From: Methanothrix thermoacetophila PT
GTDB lineage: Archaea; Halobacteriota; Methanosarcinia; Methanotrichales; Methanotrichaceae
Length of the DNA: 64,000 nucleotides
Direction: 5' to 3'
Assembly: GCF_000014945.1 (NCBI RefSeq)
Contig: NC_008553.1
Coordinates: forward strand, 1,240,001-1,304,000
Both the position numbers and the translations under genes were made by a program. Below, in pieces: positions 38,017-51,559 of this stretch; the first letter of the stretch is position 1, and every line of letters starts with the position of its first letter. The notes beneath the pieces are model-generated. The model did no database searches. It was given only the letters and a program-made list of their open reading frames with translations, and had not been told where the DNA came from.

Positions 38017-39749
38017 TTTATCCCACATTCCGCATTAACGCTCCAGTCCGTAGTATTTTTCGCATTCTGGTCCAAACAGTTTTATTATTTTCAAAGTATT
38101 CTCGTTGAGGTTAGCGATTTTCTGGTGTTTCTCGCCGCACAGCCATATGTTGACTTCGGTGACACCGAGGAACATGAACGCGATCCATTTGAGAGTTGGT
38201 TTTTGTGTGGGTTTCTTCAGCTGATTTGGTATGGATTGATTTGATTCTTGCAACCTTTTTCTGATCAGCCACTCTGCCACGGAATAGATCATGAGTGAGA
38301 GGACCATGATCATGGCGAGAGCTTCGATGCGTTCTTCTTTTTTGAGGTAGACCTCTGCGACTCTGAAGCTTTTGTCTTTGAGGAACCTGAATCCGCGTTC
38401 TACCTCTTGCTGTCCTTTATAGTAGCTGAGTAGTGTATCAGGGTCGATATTGAGGTCGTTAGTTGCGATTATAAACCTTCCGAGCCTGGATTTCGTTTTT
38501 TCGACTTTTTCCTGGTCGAGTTCGATATCCGCGTCTATAAAATATATTTCGATGAGTTTTTCGCCGTTTTTAGGTCGTCCTCGTTTTTTATCTGCTCGTT
38601 TGCAGACCTTTTTGAGAGAGATATGGCTGAACCTGTAGAGCGGATGGTCTCTGGCCCACAGTTCAGTTTCTTTCAGTGCGTCTGCTTCGCATGCGAACTC
38701 ACGCCGTTTCAGTTTTGCCAGAGACCGTCTTGCTTTTGTCCCGTCCTTTTCAAGATGATTCTCGAACCTCTCTGCCTTGAGATCTCGCATCGGTTCTGAC
38801 TGGTAAAGGACCCACTTCTGCTGTACTCCGCCGTAATCAGAGGTCGTCGAGAAGCATCTGTACCTGGCGTCGCGACACTCAACCATCTCAACATCGCTGT
38901 CAAGAAGCATCTCACACTCCTTTATCGTGGCCGGGACACGTGTTATCCATTTCATCTCCCTGCCGAGCATCCTGATGTTGGGCTCGGTGTAGACTGCACT
39001 GTCTGCTATGTAATACGCGCAGTCTTCAAGGTTGAGTCCGGATTTGATCTTTAAAAACGACTCTATGATCGTGTTCCTGTCGGATGCGTTACCTGAATGC
39101 GCTTTTGCAAAAAGCGGTATACCGTCCTGGTTCGTCACAAGACTGAGAACAAACTGTTTCAGATCCATCCGGCTGTCCTTCGAATGGCCCAACGTTATCT
39201 CAATCGATCTACCGCCATTGAAACCCTCATAGCTGCCATGAACGCTGAAGCTTGTGGTGTCTGCGTGCAACCTCTGGACTCCAAGCTCGAGCTCTCCCAT
39301 CACCTTCAACGCTATCTCGTTGAAAAGATCCGTAGCACCTTGCTCATAAATCGCATCCAGCGTCCTGCCTATCGCATCATCGTTCAAATCAGATGCGTTA
39401 ACTCCATCCCCAAGAAGCCTCTCAACAGGCAGCCTCTCGTAGAACTCCGGAAACAGGTACAACCTCTGACCCACAAAACCAAGACCGTTCAGAACCATCG
39501 CCTTAACAATCACCGAATGTTCCAGCTTGTGCTGCCTCAACTTCGGCATACGCGAATCTATAACATCCGCTATGCCAAGCCGGTCGAAAACCGCCGCAAC
39601 TATCCCCAAATGATCCAGCGATCGCGTGTCTGTCTCCATCTAAGCTGCTCCTCAGAACAAAACCCTTGGTGCAGCTTAAAACGTTTGCCACACGCCCCAT
39701 CCCAGGAAATTGTTTGGAAAATCAACGTTAATGCGAAATGCAGGATAAA
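38017..39749 (-). mobile_element. IS1634-family insertion sequence
   Basis: The element of about 1733 bp carries one large transposase gene and has imperfect inverted ends of about 24 bp: TTTATCCCACATTCCGCATT at the left and, on the minus strand, TTTATCCTGCATTTCGCATT at the right. The transposase stop codon lies at the edge of the left end. No matching target duplication is seen, probably because the right flank is itself a repeat related to this IS family (39745-39980). Confidence 0.82.
38035..39639 (-). CDS. IS1634-family transposase
   Basis: The 534-residue DDE transposase shows catalytic aspartates in RLHADTTSFSVHGSYEG and CAYYIADSAVYTEPN and the glutamate in YYKGQQEVERGFRFLKDKSF, with a long insertion between the second aspartate and the glutamate as expected for IS4/IS1634-type enzymes. 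The N-terminus SLDHLGIVAAVFDRLGIAD is typical. The frame is intact, so it could be functional. Confidence 0.9.
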   Translation of the reverse strand: METDTRSLDHLGIVAAVFDRLGIADVIDSRMPKLRQHKLEHSVIVKAMVLNGLGFVGQRLYLFPEFYERLPVERLLGDGVNASDLNDDAIGRTLDAIYEQGATDLFNEIALKVMGELELGVQRLHADTTSFSVHGSYEGFNGGRSIEITLGHSKDSRMDLKQFVLSLVTNQDGIPLFAKAHSGNASDRNTIIESFLKIKSGLNLEDCAYYIADSAVYTEPNIRMLGREMKWITRVPATIKECEMLLDSDVEMVECRDARYRCFSTTSDYGGVQQKWVLYQSEPMRDLKAERFENHLEKDGTKARRSLAKLKRREFACEADALKETELWARDHPLYRFSHISLKKVCKRADKKRGRPKNGEKLIEIYFIDADIELDQEKVEKTKSRLGRFIIATNDLNIDPDTLLSYYKGQQEVERGFRFLKDKSFRVAEVYLKKEERIEALAMIMVLSLMIYSVAEWLIRKRLQESNQSIPNQLKKPTQKPTLKWIAFMFLGVTEVNIWLCGEKHQKIANLNENTLKIIKLFGPECEKYYGLER

Positions 39750-40373: not shown

Positions 40374-40396
40374 ATTTGAATGATAGACACACCCTC

Positions 40397-40513
40397 AACG
40401 CCGGAAGGGTTCTTGTTACCACGGTCAAAAGAGTCCACGTAAAGATGGTCGTTACTGCATTCGCTTATAATCTGTACCAGCTGTGCACGCTGAAAAATGC
40501 CGGCATAATTTGA
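40397..40513 (+). pseudogene. 38-codon transposase C-terminal relic
   Basis: Without a start codon, the frame reads GRVLVTTVKRVHVKMVVTAF then AYNLYQLCTLKNAGII before a TGA. This resembles the C-terminal end of an IS5-group transposase from a different element than its neighbour at 39981-40373. The following 178 bases to the next gene hold nothing I can assign. Confidence 0.5.
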
Positions 40514-40691
40514 ACCTAGCGGAGGCTATCTAAGAATGACGGAAAAAAGAGTGAAATCAAGGTAAAATCAAGCGATTTGAGCAAATTTTGAGCGAAATAG
40601 TAATCAAAAATAAGAGCTTAAGCTAAACGTGCATGTAAATAGGAATCCATATATCCTATGAAATTAAAAATATCCAGCCAAGGTGGCGAGA

Positions 40692-42089
40692 ATGAGACGG
40701 TCTAAAGGAAGAGCCATTCCACGGTGCTTCATATGTTTGGGCAAGGTCCTTCCCGTGGCAATCCTGACAGGATGCCTGTTTGCTGGTATCCAGGGCTGCG
40801 CTGGGCAGGGAGAGGGGATGAGGCTTGAGGTAGAACCACAACAGGTGCTGGTAGGCGATCCCGTCAGCATAAGGGCGAGCGGGCTTGATGCGGGGCAGAT
40901 TGCCACGCTGCGTGTTTCTGGCCAGGATGTCTTAGGAAACACCTGGTATTCGGAGGCGTCTTTCCGGGCGGACGATGCGGGAACGATAGACACCTCACGT
41001 GACGCGCCGGTGGAGGGCTCGTACCACGGGATCGATCAGGCTGGGCTTTTCTGGTCCATGAGTGTCAATCAGACAGGAGAATTTGTTTCTGCGTTCCCGG
41101 TGATACACAACCTCACTGTGGGGTTGTATGTTGACGGCCGGGAGGTGGACAGCAGGGTGGTCCAGCGGATCGCCCAGATCGATCTTGAGAGGGAGAATGT
41201 GACAGATCCCATCGTGGGTGTTTTCCTGATACCAAAAGAGATCACGGAGCCCACGCCGGCGATCATAGTGCTGGGCGGCTCCGAGGGCGGTTACAAGGAG
41301 GGCTGGGCGAGCGTGATCGCCTCCAAGACGCGCATGCCCACGCTGGCGCTCGCCTACTTCGGCGCGCCGGGATTGCCGCAGACCCTTGAGAACATCCCTG
41401 TGGAGACAGTGGGAAAGGCCATCGAATGGCTGAATCAGCAGCCTCTGGTTGCCAGAGACCACATCGGAATCGTCGGGGCATCGCGTGGTGGTGAGCTGGC
41501 CCTTCTCGCAGCCTCGATATATCCAGAGATCAAAGCTGTGGTGGGGTACACACCGAGCGGAGTCATCTGGTCTGGCATCGGAGAGAACCCGGATGCACCG
41601 GCATGGACCTACCAGGGCAGGGCGTTTCCGTATCTGAAGGCGATGATGAGTGAGGAGCAGGGGAGGCAGTTTCTGGAGGCTCAGAAGAACGGCACACCCT
41701 ATCTGGATGCGCCATCCTTCCTCTACAGCCTTGAGATGCAGCGGTCCCGTATCGATGAGGCCACAATTCCTGTTGAGAACTCCAAAGCAGCCTTTCTGCT
41801 CATAGGCAATCCCGGGGACGGGGTCTGGCCCTCTGATATGCTATCCCAGATTTCCATCGATCGACTGAGGGCCCACGATCATCCCCGCCAATACCAGCTC
41901 CTCTCCTACGATCAGGGCGGGCACATGCTGATACCCTATCCCTATTATCCAACCACAATGCGCCAGTTCTATCTGCCCACTGTCGATGTATGGGAGGGGC
42001 TGGGCGGAACAGCTGAAGGAGCTGCAAGGGCTGCAGAGGACTCGTGGCCCAGGGTGGTGGAGTTCCTGAAGAGGGAGCTCGAGGGATAG
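40692..42089 (+). CDS. Secreted acyl-CoA thioesterase/BAAT-like hydrolase
   Basis: The 465-residue protein has an N-terminal export signal ending in a cysteine-containing stretch (LTGCLFAGIQGCAG, possibly a lipoprotein signal), an Ig-like domain of the thioesterase/BAAT N-terminal type (VEPQQVLVGDPVSIRASGL), and a BAAT C-terminal alpha/beta hydrolase domain with nucleophile GASRGGELAL and histidine in DQGGHMLIPYPYYP. BAAT-family enzymes cleave or transfer acyl groups; with an export signal the substrate is probably not acyl-CoA. AGGTGG six bases before ATG 40692 supports that start over GTG 40683. It lies between inverted IS-related repeats and may be acquired. Confidence 0.8.
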   Translation: MRRSKGRAIPRCFICLGKVLPVAILTGCLFAGIQGCAGQGEGMRLEVEPQQVLVGDPVSIRASGLDAGQIATLRVSGQDVLGNTWYSEASFRADDAGTIDTSRDAPVEGSYHGIDQAGLFWSMSVNQTGEFVSAFPVIHNLTVGLYVDGREVDSRVVQRIAQIDLERENVTDPIVGVFLIPKEITEPTPAIIVLGGSEGGYKEGWASVIASKTRMPTLALAYFGAPGLPQTLENIPVETVGKAIEWLNQQPLVARDHIGIVGASRGGELALLAASIYPEIKAVVGYTPSGVIWSGIGENPDAPAWTYQGRAFPYLKAMMSEEQGRQFLEAQKNGTPYLDAPSFLYSLEMQRSRIDEATIPVENSKAAFLLIGNPGDGVWPSDMLSQISIDRLRAHDHPRQYQLLSYDQGGHMLIPYPYYPTTMRQFYLPTVDVWEGLGGTAEGAARAAEDSWPRVVEFLKRELEG

Positions 42090-42219
42090 CAAGGCACTCC
42101 AACCCGGCCTGCCTCTCGCGCCCCATCGCTGTTGCTGAGTGACGATCATCCCCACGACTGGGGCGCAGGAGGATGCAAAGGCTTATCTACTCACTCCTGA
42201 ACATACGTCCAGTGATAGG

Positions 42220-42414
42220 ATGGCGGAGATAGCGCCTCACAGGCATTGCGTTGTATGCGGGAATGCTATAGGGTCGGAGGAGAGCTTCTGCGATGAGCTT
42301 TGTGAGTCCAGGTTCAGATCGGCTCAAAGGAAGCAGCAGATCCTGTTTGCAGCATTCATCATACTCATGGCGCTCATACTCTTCCTTCCATCGATCATCA
42401 AGATGAGCGGATGA
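42220..42414 (+). CDS. DUF2116-type zinc-ribbon membrane protein
   Basis: The 64-residue protein has an N-terminal zinc ribbon (PHRHCVVCGNAIGSEESFCD followed by ELCE) and one C-terminal transmembrane helix (LFAAFIILMALILFLPSII). This matches small archaeal DUF2116 proteins of unknown function. The ATG at 42220 is preferred; the longer frame from 42139 lacks family similarity. It is 3 bp upstream of the next gene. Confidence 0.75.
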   Translation: MAEIAPHRHCVVCGNAIGSEESFCDELCESRFRSAQRKQQILFAAFIILMALILFLPSIIKMSG

Positions 42415-42417
42415 TGG

Positions 42418-42852
42418 ATGAAGCGATACAGAGCCCTCATTCTTCTGTCAGCGGCGATTCTGCTGGCTGCCCACGGAGGCGGTGCCAGAGAGAACATCCA
42501 CGTCGAGGAGGTGACGATGCATCTGATGGATGGGAGCGCCACCTTCGAGCTCAACTACTCACTGGATGCCTTCACGAGGCTCTACGTCCTGGCCCTGGGC
42601 TGCAGGTCACTCGAGCCTGAGCTCGCCTCCATCCTCTGTGGATACAGGGACGTCAGGCTGATCAGGGCAGATCTGAATCGCGCTGCCCTGCTCGTCGGCG
42701 ATGCAGCAAGGTACAACGGCGGATAATATCTCTTTGAGTCCCGCCCCTTCGGATATGGGATCCCCAGGTTCACGGTTGTCTACCCAGATGGCCAGGCCAG
42801 GACGTACTACAATGTGACATCGACACAGGACGTCTTCTGCACTGAGCGCTGA
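42418..42852 (+). pseudogene. Secreted protein gene interrupted by an in-frame TAA
   Basis: The first 102 codons encode a signal peptide (ALILLSAAILLAAHGGGA) and a beta-rich domain (VTMHLMDGSATFELNYSL). A TAA at 42724-42726 ends the frame, but the same frame continues for 41 protein-like codons (YLFESRPFGYGIPRFTVVYP then DGQARTYYNVTSTQD) to a TGA at 42850. The continuation begins with no frame change, so a point mutation creating TAA is the simplest reading. The ATG at 42418 directly follows the DUF2116 gene. Confidence 0.65.
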
Positions 42853-42930
42853 TGCTCAGGATGCCGCTGGAGTCTGACCTCCTTCGGGGATTGCGCCTCA
42901 CTATCAGTCACCGTGTCTAAGTGGTCCTGG

Positions 42931-43521
42931 TCATGAGGACCGACTGGCTCCATACTCCCCCAGTCCCTGGCTACTGCTTTCGGCCTCCATCTCCCTGGCA
43001 AGATCCCTCAGGCCGGGGTGTACCACTGCTCCAGAGAGATAGGCGAGCCAGAGCATGAACCTCTCAGCCCTATCCTCCAGAAGCCTGGTCCGGTTGTAAT
43101 GCACCATGGCCTCCTCCATATAGCCCCTGGCAAGCCTGGAGCTCTCCTCAGATAGGAGTGCAGAATCCCTGCACCTCTCCTCCAGGTCCTCCATATCATC
43201 GATGAGTGCAAGGCTCCTGTTATAGAGAGGTGCCGTCTGCTCGTACAGGGCTCTGGACTCAGCGAGCAGCCTCTCCGACTCCTCAACCATCATCGCAGAG
43301 GAGAGGGCCTTTGGCTGGGGGGTCGTCGGAGGAGCAAACCCCCCTGGTCCGATGTGGGGCGCGGAGGCCGAGGCCCTCGCCCCGGTCTGGAGGTTTAAGA
43401 CATCATCGATCCTGCCATGTCCGAGAGCCTGAGGCTCCATTGCAGTTGCCACCTGCATGGTGGCAAAAATGAGCAATAATACGATCCACATCGAGGTAAA
43501 TCGCCTCCTGGCACCATTCAA
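42931..43521 (-). CDS. Secreted helical protein of unknown function
   Basis: The 196-residue protein has a signal peptide (MWIVLLLIFATMQVATA), a low-complexity Ala/Pro/Gly segment (APPTTPQPKA) and a long amphipathic helical region (EESERLLAESRALYEQTAPL, and DDMEDLEERCRDSALLSEES) likely to form a coiled coil. No family recognised. Its start lies only about 30 bp from the MITE-like element on the upstream side, which may affect its promoter. Confidence 0.65.
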   Translation of the reverse strand: MNGARRRFTSMWIVLLLIFATMQVATAMEPQALGHGRIDDVLNLQTGARASASAPHIGPGGFAPPTTPQPKALSSAMMVEESERLLAESRALYEQTAPLYNRSLALIDDMEDLEERCRDSALLSEESSRLARGYMEEAMVHYNRTRLLEDRAERFMLWLAYLSGAVVHPGLRDLAREMEAESSSQGLGEYGASRSS

Positions 43522-43551
43522 ATGAGGATTCCTAAAAACCTTGCTTTAAAA

Positions 43552-43850
43552 CCCACATTTCGCAGTAAGGCTATGCAAAATTGAAAATTTTTTGGTTACA
43601 AAATACTCAAATTCTAGGATAACAAAATCACATAATGTGCATCAAATTTCGCATATTCTTTTAATAAGAAACATATGTAATAAAATAAAATTATTAATTG
43701 TGTAATTTTCTAAATTATAAAATTATAAATAAAAAATTTTGCATTGTCTGTAAGATTTTTAACAAAGCTTGCCGATTTGCATTTATGTTCTCCTATTACT
43801 ATTATCAACTGTGACTGAAAGTTATTCCGTTAATGCGGAATGTGGGATAA
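43552..43850 (-). mobile_element. MITE-like element with IS1634-type ends; contains repeat copy 2
   Basis: The left end (CCCACATTTCGCAGTAA) and right end (TTAATGCGGAATGTGGG) are inverted and agree at about 15 of 17 positions. The right-end region 43828-43850 is identical, in reverse complement, to the left end of the IS1634-type element at 38017. The 299 bp interior is AT-rich and non-coding, and 43552-43786 is the inverted partner of 39745-39980. This is the pattern of a non-autonomous derivative mobilised by the full IS. Confidence 0.65.
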
Positions 43851-44456: not shown

Positions 44457-46436
44457 TCAGACTATGAGCGGGATGTTCTCGACGGACTCGGGATTCGCGA
44501 GTGCTGAGATATCGCCGACCGGCTTGCCCAGGGCCTTGGCCTTTATGACCCTGCGCATGATCTTTCCGGATCTTGTCTTCGGGACGTCCTTGACGAAGTA
44601 GACGATCTCCGGATATGCGACAGGCCCGAGCACACTCCTGACGTGCTTCGCGATGTCCTTCTTCAGGTCCTCGCTCTCCTGCACGCCCTCCTTGAGTATT
44701 ATGAAGGCCACGATGACCTCGCCCTTGACCTCGTCGGGCTTGCCGATGACTGCTGCCTCAGCGACCGCCGGATGCGAGACCGCAGCTGACTCGACCTCGG
44801 CGTTGCTGATCCTGTGGCCCGCTACCTTCAACACATCATCAATCCTGCCCTGGATCCACCAGTAGCCGTCCTTGTCCCTCGTCGCCTTATCGCCTGCCAG
44901 GTATGTGCCGGGCTTGATATCCCAGTACATCTGCCAGTACTCCTTCATGTACCTCTCGGGGTCCCTGAAGAAGGCGCGGAGCATCGACGGCCAGGGTGTC
45001 TTCTGGACTATATTACCGCCGTAGCCGAGTGGCACGGAGTTGCCATCCTCGTCGTAGATGTCTGTATTGAATCCAGGCAGCGGGAACGCCACGGAGCCAG
45101 GCTTCTCAGGTGTCATCGGGAGCGGAGCGATCACGTGGCATCCTGTCTCTGTCTGCCACCATGTATCGATGATCGGTGCCTGCCCTCCTCCGATGTTGTT
45201 CCTGAACCAGACGTACGCCTCGGGGTTGAGTGGCTCGCCGACGGAAGCCAGGATCCTGATGGACTTGAGGTTGTACTTCTTCGGCCACTGATCGCCGGCC
45301 TTCATGAACATCCTAATCGCAGTGGGAGCTGTGTAGAACACAGAGACGCCATACTCCTCTATGATGGACCACCATCTGCCGATGTCCGGATAGTCAGGGG
45401 CGCCCTCGTAGAGGATGCTCGTCGCGCCAAGGCAGAGCGGGCCGTATACGACATATGAGTGGCCTGTGATCCAGCCGCAGTCCGCTGTACACCAGTAGAC
45501 GTCCTCCTCATGGACGTCCAGAGCCCATGCGGTTGTGTATGCAGGACCGACACAGAATCCACCATGTGCATGCTCGATGCCCTTCGGCTTTCCGGTTGTG
45601 CCCGATGTGTACAGAATGAACAGCCTGTCCTCTGGATCAAGCTCCTCCGTGTAGCACTCGGCTGGCTGATCTTTTACAAGATCATGGTACCAGATGTCGC
45701 GGCCCTCTTTCATCGGGACGTCAAGCCCTACCCTCTTGACCACGACGACCTTCTCAACGCTCGGGGCGTTCTGGACTGCCTCATCGACGTTCGGCTTGAG
45801 CGGGAGCGGCTTGCCACGCCTGTAGAAGCCATCAGATGTCACGACGACCTTAGCCTCTGCATCCGTGACCCTGCTCTGCAGGCCTCCAGCGCTGAATCCC
45901 GAGAAGACAACACTGTGGATCGCGCCGATCTTCGCACATGCGAGCATCGTGATCGGGAGCTCGGGTATCATGGGCAGATATATGCTGACCCTGTCGCCCT
46001 TCTTGACGCCCAGACTCTTGAGACCATTTGCCATCTTGTTGACGGCCTGGTAGAGCTGGTAGTATGTGATCGTCTTTGTGTCGCCAACAGGCTCGCCGAC
46101 GAAGTAGTACGCGACCTTGTTCCTGCGCCAGGACTTCGCATGCCTGTCAACTGCATTGTGTGCGACGTTGCACTTACCTCCGAGGAACCACTTCGCATAT
46201 GGCGGGTTCCACTCGAGGATCTGGGTGTACGGCTTGAACCAGTCCGCGTATGTCTGGGCCATCTCATCCCAGAAATCGAGGTAGTTCTGGGCACACCACT
46301 CGCGCATCTCCTTCTCTGTCTTGAAGCCCTTCTTCTTCATCCACTGGTAGGAGTTCGAGTACTCGATGATCCACTGGGGGGTGTTGAATATCCTGGTCTC
46401 CTCCTGCAGAACAGCAGTCTTTGCAGTCTCAGCCAT
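44457..46436 (-). CDS. acs: Acetyl-CoA synthetase (AMP-forming), paralog 1
   Basis: This enzyme activates acetate to acetyl-CoA with ATP and is the entry step of aceticlastic methanogenesis in Methanothrix, replacing the acetate kinase route of Methanosarcina. The 659-residue protein has the ANL-superfamily motifs [18 protein letters not shown] (phosphate loop), [31 protein letters not shown] and the catalytic lysine [17 protein letters not shown] lies seven bases before the ATG at 46436. It is the last of three tandem paralogs on this strand. A 377 bp gap and its own TATA box upstream suggest separate transcription. Confidence 0.96.
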
Positions 46437-46813
46437 TTACATACCTCCATTCATCTAGATAATGTGCTTCCGTCCCACGATGCCGCTGGCATGAGCTCCA
46501 CCCGAGAACTCCTCCTGAGAAGAAGCGGGTCAAGAAGTCCTCCTGCCAAACCATAACTGCCATGCCGCGATCACCTATGAGCATTGGGAGACTCCGGAAA
46601 CACGATAATTCCATACGTATTCCGTATTTATAAAGCTGTCGATATAGAAATGTCACCAAAAATTTGTAATAATTATTTTTCGTGATAAAAGTGTTAAAGA
46701 TTATATGTAAATTAACGATATCGATATCCAGCAGAAGGGACCATGATAAGAAAACACACGAAGTCAGGCCAAAACAGAGTATCACATAAAATCAAATAAA
46801 ATAGGTTGACCGC
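46437..46813 (-). promoter_or_regulatory. acs1 upstream region, TATA box near 46625-46634
   Basis: Non-coding, 377 bases. On the minus strand TTTATAAATA at 46625-46634 is a strong archaeal TATA box, predicting a transcript start near 46600 and a leader of about 165 bases, long for an archaeal mRNA. The remainder towards acs2 is AT-rich. Confidence 0.5.
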
Positions 46814-48802
46814 TCACTTGATGAGCGGTATGGCGTCCACAGCCTCCGGGTTCGCAAGCGCAGAGATGTCTCCAACTGGATTGCCCAGGGCCTTGGCCTT
46901 TATGACCCGGCGCATGATCTTTCCGGATCTTGTCTTCGGGACGTCCTTGACGAAGTAGACGATCTCCGGATATGCGACAGGCCCGAGCACGCTCCTGACG
47001 TGCTTTGCCAGTTCCTTCTTGAGATCCTCGCTCTCCTTCACACCCTCTCTGAGTATGACGAAGGCCACGATGACCTCGCCCTTGACCTCGTCGGGCTTGC
47101 CGATGACTGCTGCCTCAGCGACCGCCGGATGTGACACGAGCGCCGACTCAACCTCAGCGTTGCTGATCCTGTGGCCCGCTACCTTCAACACATCATCAAT
47201 CCTGCCCTGGATGAAGAAGTAGCCGTCCTTGTCCCTCGTCGCCTTATCGCCCGCCAGGTAGACTCCAGGCCTGATATCCCAGTACATCTGCCAATACTCC
47301 TTCATGTACCTCTCTGGATCCTTGTAGAAGGCGCGGAGCATCGACGGCCATGGCGTCGGGTTGACTATGTTGCCGCCCTGTCCTGGAGGCACTGGGTTTG
47401 CGTCCTCATCGTAGATGTCTGTGTTGAACCCGGGCAGCGGGAATGTGGGCGAGCCGGGCTTGAGCGGTGTGATCGGCAATGGAGAGACCACGAAGCATCC
47501 AGTCTCCGTCTGCCACCATGTATCCATGATCGGGCACCTGTCGCTTCCGAAGTACTTTCTGTACCATATCCAGGCCTCGGGGTTGATCGGCTCACCGACA
47601 GAGCCGAGCAGTCTCAGGCTGGAGAGATCGTACTTCTGCGGCCACTGCTCGCCGGCCTTCATGAACATTCTTATGGCTGTTGGCGCTGTGTAGAAGACAG
47701 AGACCTTGTGCTCCTGGATTATGCTGAACCATCTCCCGAAGTCTGGATAGTCAGGGGCGCCCTCGTAGAGGATGCTCGTCGCGCCCAGACAGAGTGGGCC
47801 GTAAACGACGTAGGAGTGGCCCGTGATCCATCCGACATCGGCTGTGCACCACCAGACATCGTCGTCCTTGAGATCGAATACCCAGTGAGTTGTTTGTGCC
47901 GGAGTCACGCAGTAGCCGCCATGGACGTGCTCGATGCCTTTTGGCTTTCCTGTCGTGCCTGATGTGTAGAGGATGAACAGTCTATCCTCAGAGTCCATCT
48001 TCTCTGTCTCGCACTCGTCAGGCTGATTGGCCACGAGCTCGTGATACCAGATATCACGGCCCTCCTTCATCGGGACGTCAAGCCCTGCCCTCTTGACCAC
48101 GACGACCTTCTCAACGCTCGGGGCGTTCTGGACTGCCTCATCGACGTTCGGCTTGAGCGGGAGCGGCTTGCCGCGCCTGTAGAATCCATCGGTTGTGACG
48201 ACAACCTTCGCCTCTGCATCGAGAACCCTGCTCTGGAGGCCTCCAGCGCTGAATCCGGAGAATACCACGCTGTGGATCGCGCCGATCTTCGCACATGCGA
48301 GCATCGCTATCGGCGTCTCCGGGATCATGGGCATGTATATGCTGACCCTGTCGCCCTTCTTCACACCAAGACTCTTCAGGCCGTTTGCGAATTTGTTAAC
48401 AGCCTTGTACAGATCCAGGTAGGTTATCTTCCTCACCTGCTGATCTGTCGGCTCGGGCACGAAGATATAGGCGACCTTGTCCTTCTTTGCGCCCTTTGCA
48501 TGTCTGTCCACAGCGTTGTACGCGACGTTGCACTTCCCACCAACGAACCATCTCGCATACGGCGGCTTCCACTCGAGGATCTGCGCGTATGGCTCGAACC
48601 AGTCCGCGTAGGTCTTGGCCATCTCGTCCCAGAACTCTATGTAGTGCTGGCCGGTCCAGGCGCGCATCTCCCGCTCGCTTGTGAATCCCTTCTTCTTCAT
48701 CCACTGCATGACATTTGAGTTCTCAGCAAGCTCCTTAGGGGGATGGAACACTCTTGTTTCCTCAAGAAGAACCGCAGTTGTAGCAGCTTTTTCCTCAGCC
48801 AT
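46814..48802 (-). CDS. acs: Acetyl-CoA synthetase (AMP-forming), paralog 2
   Basis: The 662-residue protein has the same motifs as its neighbours ([48 protein letters not shown]). ATG 48802 is chosen because the paralogs all start MAE and GGAG lies nine bases upstream; in-frame starts at 48826 (also with GGAGG) and 48904 are possible. Long stretches are almost identical in DNA to paralog 1, such as the segments coding for residues around [19 protein letters not shown] and for the C-terminal 100 residues, suggesting gene conversion. Confidence 0.96.
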
Positions 48803-49151
48803 TTTGTGACACTCCTCAACAGTCATTCTGCCTCCAGCCCATCCCGATCTGTTGCGAATCTGCCCTCCCAGCAGACAAATCAGGATGTGGAGACTCAGAG
48901 GCATTATTACGATTGATAATTATCTCTTTCGTTTATAAAGTTAACGTTTGAATGAAATTAATGTTTAATAATGATATTGAAAAATCATTGAAGTAACCTC
49001 GAAGCAAACAATTCATTTTACAATATTACATCTTGTTGGATCGTCGTCTATATCGAATAGCTCCAAAACTATATAAAATTATTTAAGAAACTCTCGGCTG
49101 CAGACAAATCCGCAGCATAGAAATTTAATAAAAATAAAAATTGCGGACGTT
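48803..49151 (-). promoter_or_regulatory. acs2 upstream region, TATA box near 48931-48940
   Basis: Non-coding, about 350 bases and AT-rich towards acs3. On the minus strand CTTTATAAAC at 48931-48940 is a typical TATA box, predicting transcription from about 48907 and a leader of roughly 105 bases. Confidence 0.5.
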
Positions 49152-51134
49152 CTACACAATCTTCGGTATAGCGTCCACTGCTTCTGGATTTGCAAGTGTG
49201 GATATGTCTCCGACAGGCTGCCCCATCGCCTTCGCCCTTATGACCCTGCGCATGATCTTTCCGGATCTCGTCTTCGGGACGTCCTTGACGAAGTATACCG
49301 CCTCAGGCATTGCAACAGGCCCGAGTGTCTCTCTGATATGCTTTGCGATGTCCTTCTTGAGCTCCTCGCTCTCCTGCACCCCCTCTCTGAGTATGGCGAA
49401 TACTATTATGACCTCGCCCTTGACCGGATCCGGCTTGCCGATGACAGCTGCCTCTGCGACCTTCGGATGTGAAACTGCAGCCGACTCAACCTCCGAGTTC
49501 CCGATCCTGTGGCCTGCGACCTTGATGACATCATCGATCCTGCCCTGTATCCAGAAGTAGCCGTCCTCATCCCTTCTGCCCTTGTCGCCTGCCAGGTACG
49601 TTCCGGCCCTGACGTTCCAATAGGTCTCCCAGTACGTCCTGAAATACCTATCGGGGTCTTTGTAGAAGTCTCTCAGCATCGATGGATACGGCTCAAGTAT
49701 GACGATGTTTCCGCCCTCTCCTGGAGGCACAGGCTTTCCAGCCTCGTCCCATACATCCATGCTGTATCCCGGCAGAGCGAACGTGCAGCTTCCTGGCTTG
49801 AGCGGCGTGATCGGAAGCGGAGAGCCTATGAACGTGCCGGTCTCGGTCTGCCACCAGGTGTCCATGATCTGGAGCTCATCCCTTCCGATGTTCTTCCTGT
49901 ACCAGACCCAGGCCTCCGGGTTGATCGGCTCGCCCACGGTGCCCAACAGTCGCAAACACTTCATGTTGTACTTGGCAGGCCACTGCTCACCGGCCCTCAT
50001 GAACATCCTGATCGCGGTTGGCGCTGTGTAGAGCACGTTCACGCCGAACTCTTCGATTATAGACCACCATCTTCCGAAGTCCGGGTAATCAGGAGATCCC
50101 TCGTATATTATGCTGGTCGCGCCGAGCGAGAGCGGGCCGTATACGATGTAGGAATGTCCTGTGATCCATCCGATGTCTGCTGTACACCACCAGACGTCAT
50201 CCTCTTTGAGATCGAAGACCCAGTGGAGAGTCTGCGGAACGCCAACACAGTATCCGCCGTGCGCGTGCTCTATGCCCTTCGGCTTTCCTGTCGTGCCTGA
50301 TGTGTACAGAATGAACAGCCTATGCTCTGGGTCAAGCTGCTCGGTCTCGCACTCAGCAGGCTGATCCTTTACGAGATCATGCCACCAGATATCCCTGTCC
50401 TTGTTCCATGGGATATCCTGGCCGGTTCTCTTGTAAACGATCTGATGCTTTACTGTTGGAGCATCCTGAATCGCCTCGTCAGCCTGCTTTTTGAGCTCCA
50501 CAATCTTTCCGCGCCTCCAGAATCCATCAACGGTGATCGATATCTTCGACTCCGCATCGATAACCCTGTCAGCATACGCCTTCGAGCTGAATCCTGAGAA
50601 GACAACGCTGTGGATCGCACCGATCTTTGCGCATGCAAGCATCGCTATCGGGAGCTCAGGAATCATTGGCATGTATATGCTGACTCTATCGCCCTTCTCG
50701 ACGCCCAGACTCTTCAGGCCATTTGCGAACTTGTTAACCTCTCTGTAGAGGTCACCATAGGTGAACTTCCTCACGTCGCCCAGCGGCTCACCCACACCGA
50801 TGTACGCCACCTTATTTCTCCTCCAGGACTTCGCATGCCTGTCCACCGCGTTATAGGCCATGTTGACCTTGCCGCCAACGAACCACTTGGCATACGGAGG
50901 CTTCCAGTCGAGGACCTGCTTGTAGGGCTCGAACCAATCTGCATACGTCTTGGCCATCTCGTCCCAGAACTCAACATAGTTCTTTGAGCACCATTCCCGC
51001 ATCTCTTTCTCTGTCTTGAAGCCCTTCTTCTTCATCCACTGCATCACATTTGAGTTCTCAACCAGCTCCTTCGGGGGATGGAACAACCTCCTCTCCTCGA
51101 GAAGGACCGCAGTTTTTGCGGTTTCCTCGGCCAT
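49152..51134 (-). CDS. acs: Acetyl-CoA synthetase (AMP-forming), paralog 3
   Basis: This 660-residue paralog retains all ANL motifs ([68 protein letters not shown]) but differs most from the other two, for example [19 protein letters not shown] in place of the shared [26 protein letters not shown] precedes the ATG closely. It is the first gene of the tandem array and could have distinct kinetics or regulation; that cannot be judged from sequence alone. Confidence 0.96.
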
Positions 51135-51559
51135 TTTTATAAACCTCCTTCCATATCCATCCGCCGCGTGGTCTGAGGGCTATAGGGCGGCAGATGTTAA
51201 TGGTAGATTATGTTCATTATTAATAAATCTATTGGTTCGTGCTATCATTTGCCCACCATTCCCAAGATAATATAATAAATAATAATTATAGATTCTCGAA
51301 CAACATCTCTTTCGGGTTGGATGAGTATACCAGATAAATATCCAGAGCATATGGTATGAAAATAGTTCTCGCAAAGGTCCATTTTCATCCACATTGGTGA
51401 CCTTGGGTCAAGGGTGTTTTTGTGTTTTTTTATAATGCAGATGAAAATCAATACCGTCCACCCAAGCACCCCGTTCAGATTGTGCAGATCCCGGATCACA
51501 CCTTTTGCCCCGGCCGTGCAGGAAAGCCTTTAAGCCCATCAGATGCCTCAGAGACCATC
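51135..51559. promoter_or_regulatory. Divergent promoter region between acs3 and the MoxR-type gene
   Basis: About 425 bases without a supported gene. The acs3 side is very AT-rich (51200-51300, several TAATAAT/TTTATTA boxes). On the plus strand CTTTAAG at 51528-51533 lies 27-32 bases before the ATG at 51560 and no Shine-Dalgarno is visible, consistent with a leaderless transcript for the MoxR-type gene. Confidence 0.45.

Follow-up and report, generated by a model that had tools for sequence, protein, structure and literature searches.

The window, a stretch of 64,000 nucleotides of the Methanothrix thermoacetophila PT genome, carries a small gene for a secreted protein whose reading frame contains a stop codon. 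An earlier note on this DNA had claimed that a TAA interrupts the frame at 42418-42852 after 102 codons. Translation bears this out, giving 102 codons, the TAA, 41 further codons and a terminal TGA. The upstream part of the gene has a signal-like N-terminus. The features of the locus are listed below, with similarities given to two relatives: G035, taken to be the metagenome-assembled genome (MAG) Methanosaeta sp. PtaB.Bin018 from another genus of the Methanotrichaceae (g2), and G003, which belongs to the same genus (g1) as the window genome.

40395-43552, no strand: segment of about 3.2 kb common to contig C50 of G035 (MVQH01000050.1, 9732 bases), aligned end to end
40683-42089, plus strand: BAAT-like hydrolase gene, a mosaic with ends near-identical to G035 and a middle like that of G003
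42220-42414, plus strand: intact DUF2116 gene directly upstream of the interrupted gene (PF09889, E = 5.3e-25), listed as 42139-42414 from an upstream GTG
42418-42852, plus strand: interrupted small secreted-protein gene, defined by translation and by homologs over its whole length
42724-42726, plus strand: in-frame TAA, at a codon that specifies tyrosine in most homologs
42931-43521, minus strand: open frame of 196 codons, without a Pfam or NCBIfam match, with two amino-acid differences from the G035 copy

The product of the DUF2116 gene is a treble-clef zinc protein with a hydrophobic C-terminal stretch. Such a gene precedes the secreted-protein family on the same strand at 31 of 32 loci, and at the sole locus lacking this neighbour the contig ends at the homolog. 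The DUF2116 and secreted-protein genes form a conserved, undescribed two-gene unit (42220-42852 in the window; L001-L030, L054 and L055), and a text search of the available papers found no mention of DUF2116. The secreted protein gave no Pfam match at E values up to 0.1 and no NCBIfam match above the cut-off (best E = 0.53), while a profile search of solved structures returned three matches at E = 0.26 or worse, none of them a credible relative. Prediction of the structure of the intact allele from the single sequence yielded a mean pLDDT of 44. Viral contigs were scanned for the stop region with any base allowed at the third codon position, and none was found to contain it. The available text of the literature on this genome and on readthrough yielded nothing on the interrupted gene.

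Open sequence beyond a stop is common in this DNA: for 18 of the 55 long ORFs of the window (at least 200 codons), the frame stays open for 41 codons or more after the stop. The openness of the frame beyond the TAA was therefore dropped as evidence of coding, and only homology can decide whether the sense found there is real. The homolog search covered 60 genomes, namely the window's own and 59 relatives, and gave family matches in 57 of them (the window's own included) at 60 places. An internal stop is present only in the window's own copy, and the other 59 places are uninterrupted. The earlier note had called for a comparison with homologs, in which an end at the same position would mark the downstream similarity as accidental. 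The relatives are uninterrupted at codon 103, none of the examined homologs ends at the TAA, which rules out this possibility, and the matches listed reach at least query residue 138, with the exception of one contig-edge fragment of 45 residues. The homolog of G016 lies on two contig ends, C50 and C62 of that genome (query residues 6-50 and 50-141), which is probably a break in the assembly rather than in the gene.

A search with the 41-residue downstream peptide alone recovers the 32 family members without exception, with E values no higher than 3.6e-8, its own locus and the near-identical C50 copy of G035 being counted among the 32. The 41 codons past the TAA are thus genuine protein sequence, as had been proposed from the letters. 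At codon 103, 29 of 31 homologs have tyrosine (TAC or TAT), one has phenylalanine (TTC), one has arginine (CGC) and none has a stop. The mean entropy is 1.13 bits for residues 103-141 versus 1.35 bits for residues 25-102, so that the downstream part is slightly better conserved. Comparison with six relatives gives pN/pS ratios of 0.22-0.48 for the downstream part and similar ones of 0.30-0.48 for the upstream part; the former range shows that, as judged from its substitutions, the part beyond the TAA has been under purifying selection in the past. The TAA removes the last 42 of 144 residues, a well-conserved third of the protein. The nine-member alignment A1 has 21 invariant columns, 9 of them from residue 103 onwards, and the invariant positions lost with the truncation are Y103, Y104, L105, V120, Y122, P123, R128, T129 and T136.

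The frame after the stop (42727-42849), inspected by eye, contains no ATG, no TTG and a single GTG at 42814, with 12 codons left. Translation that restarts past the TAA is therefore unlikely to yield a useful product, and the C-terminal part is not expected to be made as a useful protein of its own. The gene at 42418-42852 displays no further decay in the form of a frameshift or a second stop, which indicates that the inactivation, if real, is very recent.

The nearest copy, on contig C50 of G035, has 99% protein identity to the window copy (143 of 144 residues) and the same neighbouring genes. It differs in having an intact TAC (Tyr) for the TAA and in the middle of its hydrolase gene, which is of another type. 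Two of the 435 bases of the interrupted gene differ between the two, the stop and one synonymous change, and the part before the stop is identical over 306 of 306 bases. Across 42000-43552, four of 1553 positions differ from the MAG, all by single bases: the two just named and two that each change an amino acid of the minus-strand frame. The overall identity of 40395-43552 to C50 is 93%, lowered by one diverged block within the hydrolase gene.

The window copy is thus 99% identical to its counterpart in a g2 genome versus 42% to the native copy of its own genome, which is of the g1 type. In the protein tree, it pairs with the C50 copy inside a g2/g11 clade composed of g2 and G015 (support 99/96), and a clade restricted to the g2 rows and the window copy has modest support (81/78). 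The native copy groups with its own genus (100/99). Considering these placements, we read the interrupted copy as a recent xenolog, apparently acquired from another genus of the Methanotrichaceae. The earlier note was right about the interruption, while the foreign origin of the gene, which is not the genus' own copy, lay beyond what it could see. Positions 71-5038 of C50 are 90-93% identical to two other g2 genomes, and contig C50 therefore looks native to g2; that it is contaminating DNA from a strain of the same species as the window is unlikely on this ground. The middle of the C50 hydrolase gene, which is 78% identical to g2 versus 74-75% to g1, also opposes contamination. G035 possesses a second, different family copy on contig C95 (58%), which leaves room for a third, as yet unsampled g2 member as the actual donor. 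In principle, the G035 metagenome bin could be misassembled at an insertion sequence.

The hydrolase gene upstream of the pair has a composition of its own. In its middle (about 40883-41670), it shares 99.7% identity with G003, although the DNA flanking the gene in G003 is only ~88% identical to the window genome, and its ends are 98.5-99.75% identical to G035 of the other genus (the loci compared include L053, L070 and L071). The probable native site of the hydrolase in the window genome, around 449.8-450.3 kb, is without the gene. This mosaic pattern suggests gene conversion and repeated exchange.

Several features of mobile elements adjoin the acquired segment.

38035-39639, minus strand: DUF4277/DDE transposase gene, left of the segment
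39745-39980, no strand: left arm of an AT-rich inverted repeat (~235 bp), adjoining the segment
40376-40513, plus strand: 3' remnant of a DDE transposase gene, complete in L053 (5695-6564)
43552-43786, no strand: right arm of the inverted repeat, with the similarity to G035 stopping exactly at 43552

The two arms are 98% complementary and resemble the ends of non-autonomous insertion sequences, and perfect inverted ends of 23 bp are present at 38018-38040 and 43828-43850. The end of the G035 similarity at 43552, together with the inverted repeats, the transposase gene and the 23-bp ends, suggests, but does not show, that the segment arrived by way of an insertion sequence. A clean empty site was not found in the relatives; the region is rearranged, and G005 and G001 have different DNA next to the acetyl-CoA synthetase gene. 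Tandem acetyl-CoA synthetase genes occupy 44457-51154 of the window, with further copies at about 46821-48804 and 49183-51154 (74-80% identity), and this array is also present in genomes of the same genus.

The genome (G000) has a second, native member of the family at 1594964-1595374 on the minus strand, ~0.31 Mb from the interrupted copy, whereas the other genomes of the genus (G001-G005) have one family match each. The native copy resembles the interrupted one in matching the same family and in having a DUF2116 gene upstream. It differs in being intact, in its identity of 42% given above and in clustering with its own genus. The presence of an intact native copy makes the interrupted copy dispensable.

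The observations are best explained by a nonsense mutation that recently changed one base of a redundant copy gained by horizontal transfer, an explanation to which we assign a probability of roughly 0.84. The earlier note had offered a nonsense mutation, a sequence error or readthrough. Of the three, a nonsense mutation is strongly favoured: the relatives are uninterrupted, C50 has tyrosine at this codon and the native copy is intact. The DUF2116 and secreted-protein pair would have been acquired recently, with neighbouring DNA, from a member of another Methanotrichaceae genus by a genome in which an intact pair of its own was already present. Following the transfer, or in the donor strain, a single base change would have turned the conserved tyrosine codon of the redundant copy into TAA. 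Translation would then stop after 102 codons, with loss of the last 42 residues and, with them, many of the most conserved positions of the family, and the truncated copy may be tolerated as the native one remains. In this course of events we infer the direction and time of the transfer, its order relative to the mutation, that function is lost, and that the mutation persists because the copy is redundant. The stop stands against a sense codon in the homologs, homology continues past it and a conserved part is lost, as in nonsense pseudogenes in general, and the copy is far more similar to that of another genus than to that of its own, as is typical of recent xenologs. Like other members of this combined class, it has a single premature stop in an otherwise intact, redundant and acquired copy, with transposase genes and inverted repeats adjoining, and no distinctive difference from the class was found. 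On sequence grounds, the interrupted copy is most likely an ordinary young pseudogene.

The main rival is a base-calling error, in which case the TAA would stem from sequencing or assembly and the acquired copy would be intact and translated to 144 residues. We consider this unlikely. In its favour, the TAA is the sole inactivating change in what is otherwise the intact G035 copy bar one synonymous difference, and the species is represented by one assembly only, from which an error and a mutation look the same. Against an error stand the quality of the genome, a single contig of 1,879,471 bases with an estimated completeness of 99.95% and contamination of 0.09%, and the fact that the surrounding 1.55 kb departs from the MAG at three more single bases, beside which a further real difference is unremarkable. 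It is improbable that the stop is real and the 102-residue product is still exported and functional. The signal-like N-terminus and the rest of the upstream part are unchanged relative to G035, but the 42 missing residues include many invariant positions, and no homolog of such a length occurs among the matches, contig-edge fragments aside.

Even more improbable is readthrough of the TAA by ribosomes, with production of some full-length protein. Recoding by pyrrolysine or selenocysteine had already been set aside, rightly, the codon being TAA and not UAG or UGA. An archaeal recoding review names UAG and UGA as redefined codons (PMC8211752), at least in the part consulted, and a text search of its main text did not find the term UAA. 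The downstream frame is intact, yet a change so recent would by itself leave it so. For bacteria, it has at times been argued that conserved in-frame stops are read through (PMC7918605); the stop discussed here is similar to such prokaryotic cases in facing an amino acid in the alignment, with well-aligned sequence before and after it. As described in the portion of that study available, however, in-frame stops were counted only if present in two or more genomes, and the stop in the window, confined to one genome and absent at this position from all 31 homologs, falls outside that count. The variant in which the TAA is read through or suppressed, so that a 102-residue secreted form and a little full-length protein provide dose control on a newly acquired gene, is just as improbable. 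Readthrough of UAA in a methanogen, if true, would be surprising; nothing specific supports it here.

A recent nonsense mutation in an acquired copy is an ordinary finding and matters little as a pseudogene; the stop itself is of slightly less interest than the conserved DUF2116 pair and the mosaic hydrolase gene. The locus provides a clear case of a gene on its way from horizontal acquisition to loss, with the near-identical lineage of origin, the native counterpart and the one inactivating change all visible together.
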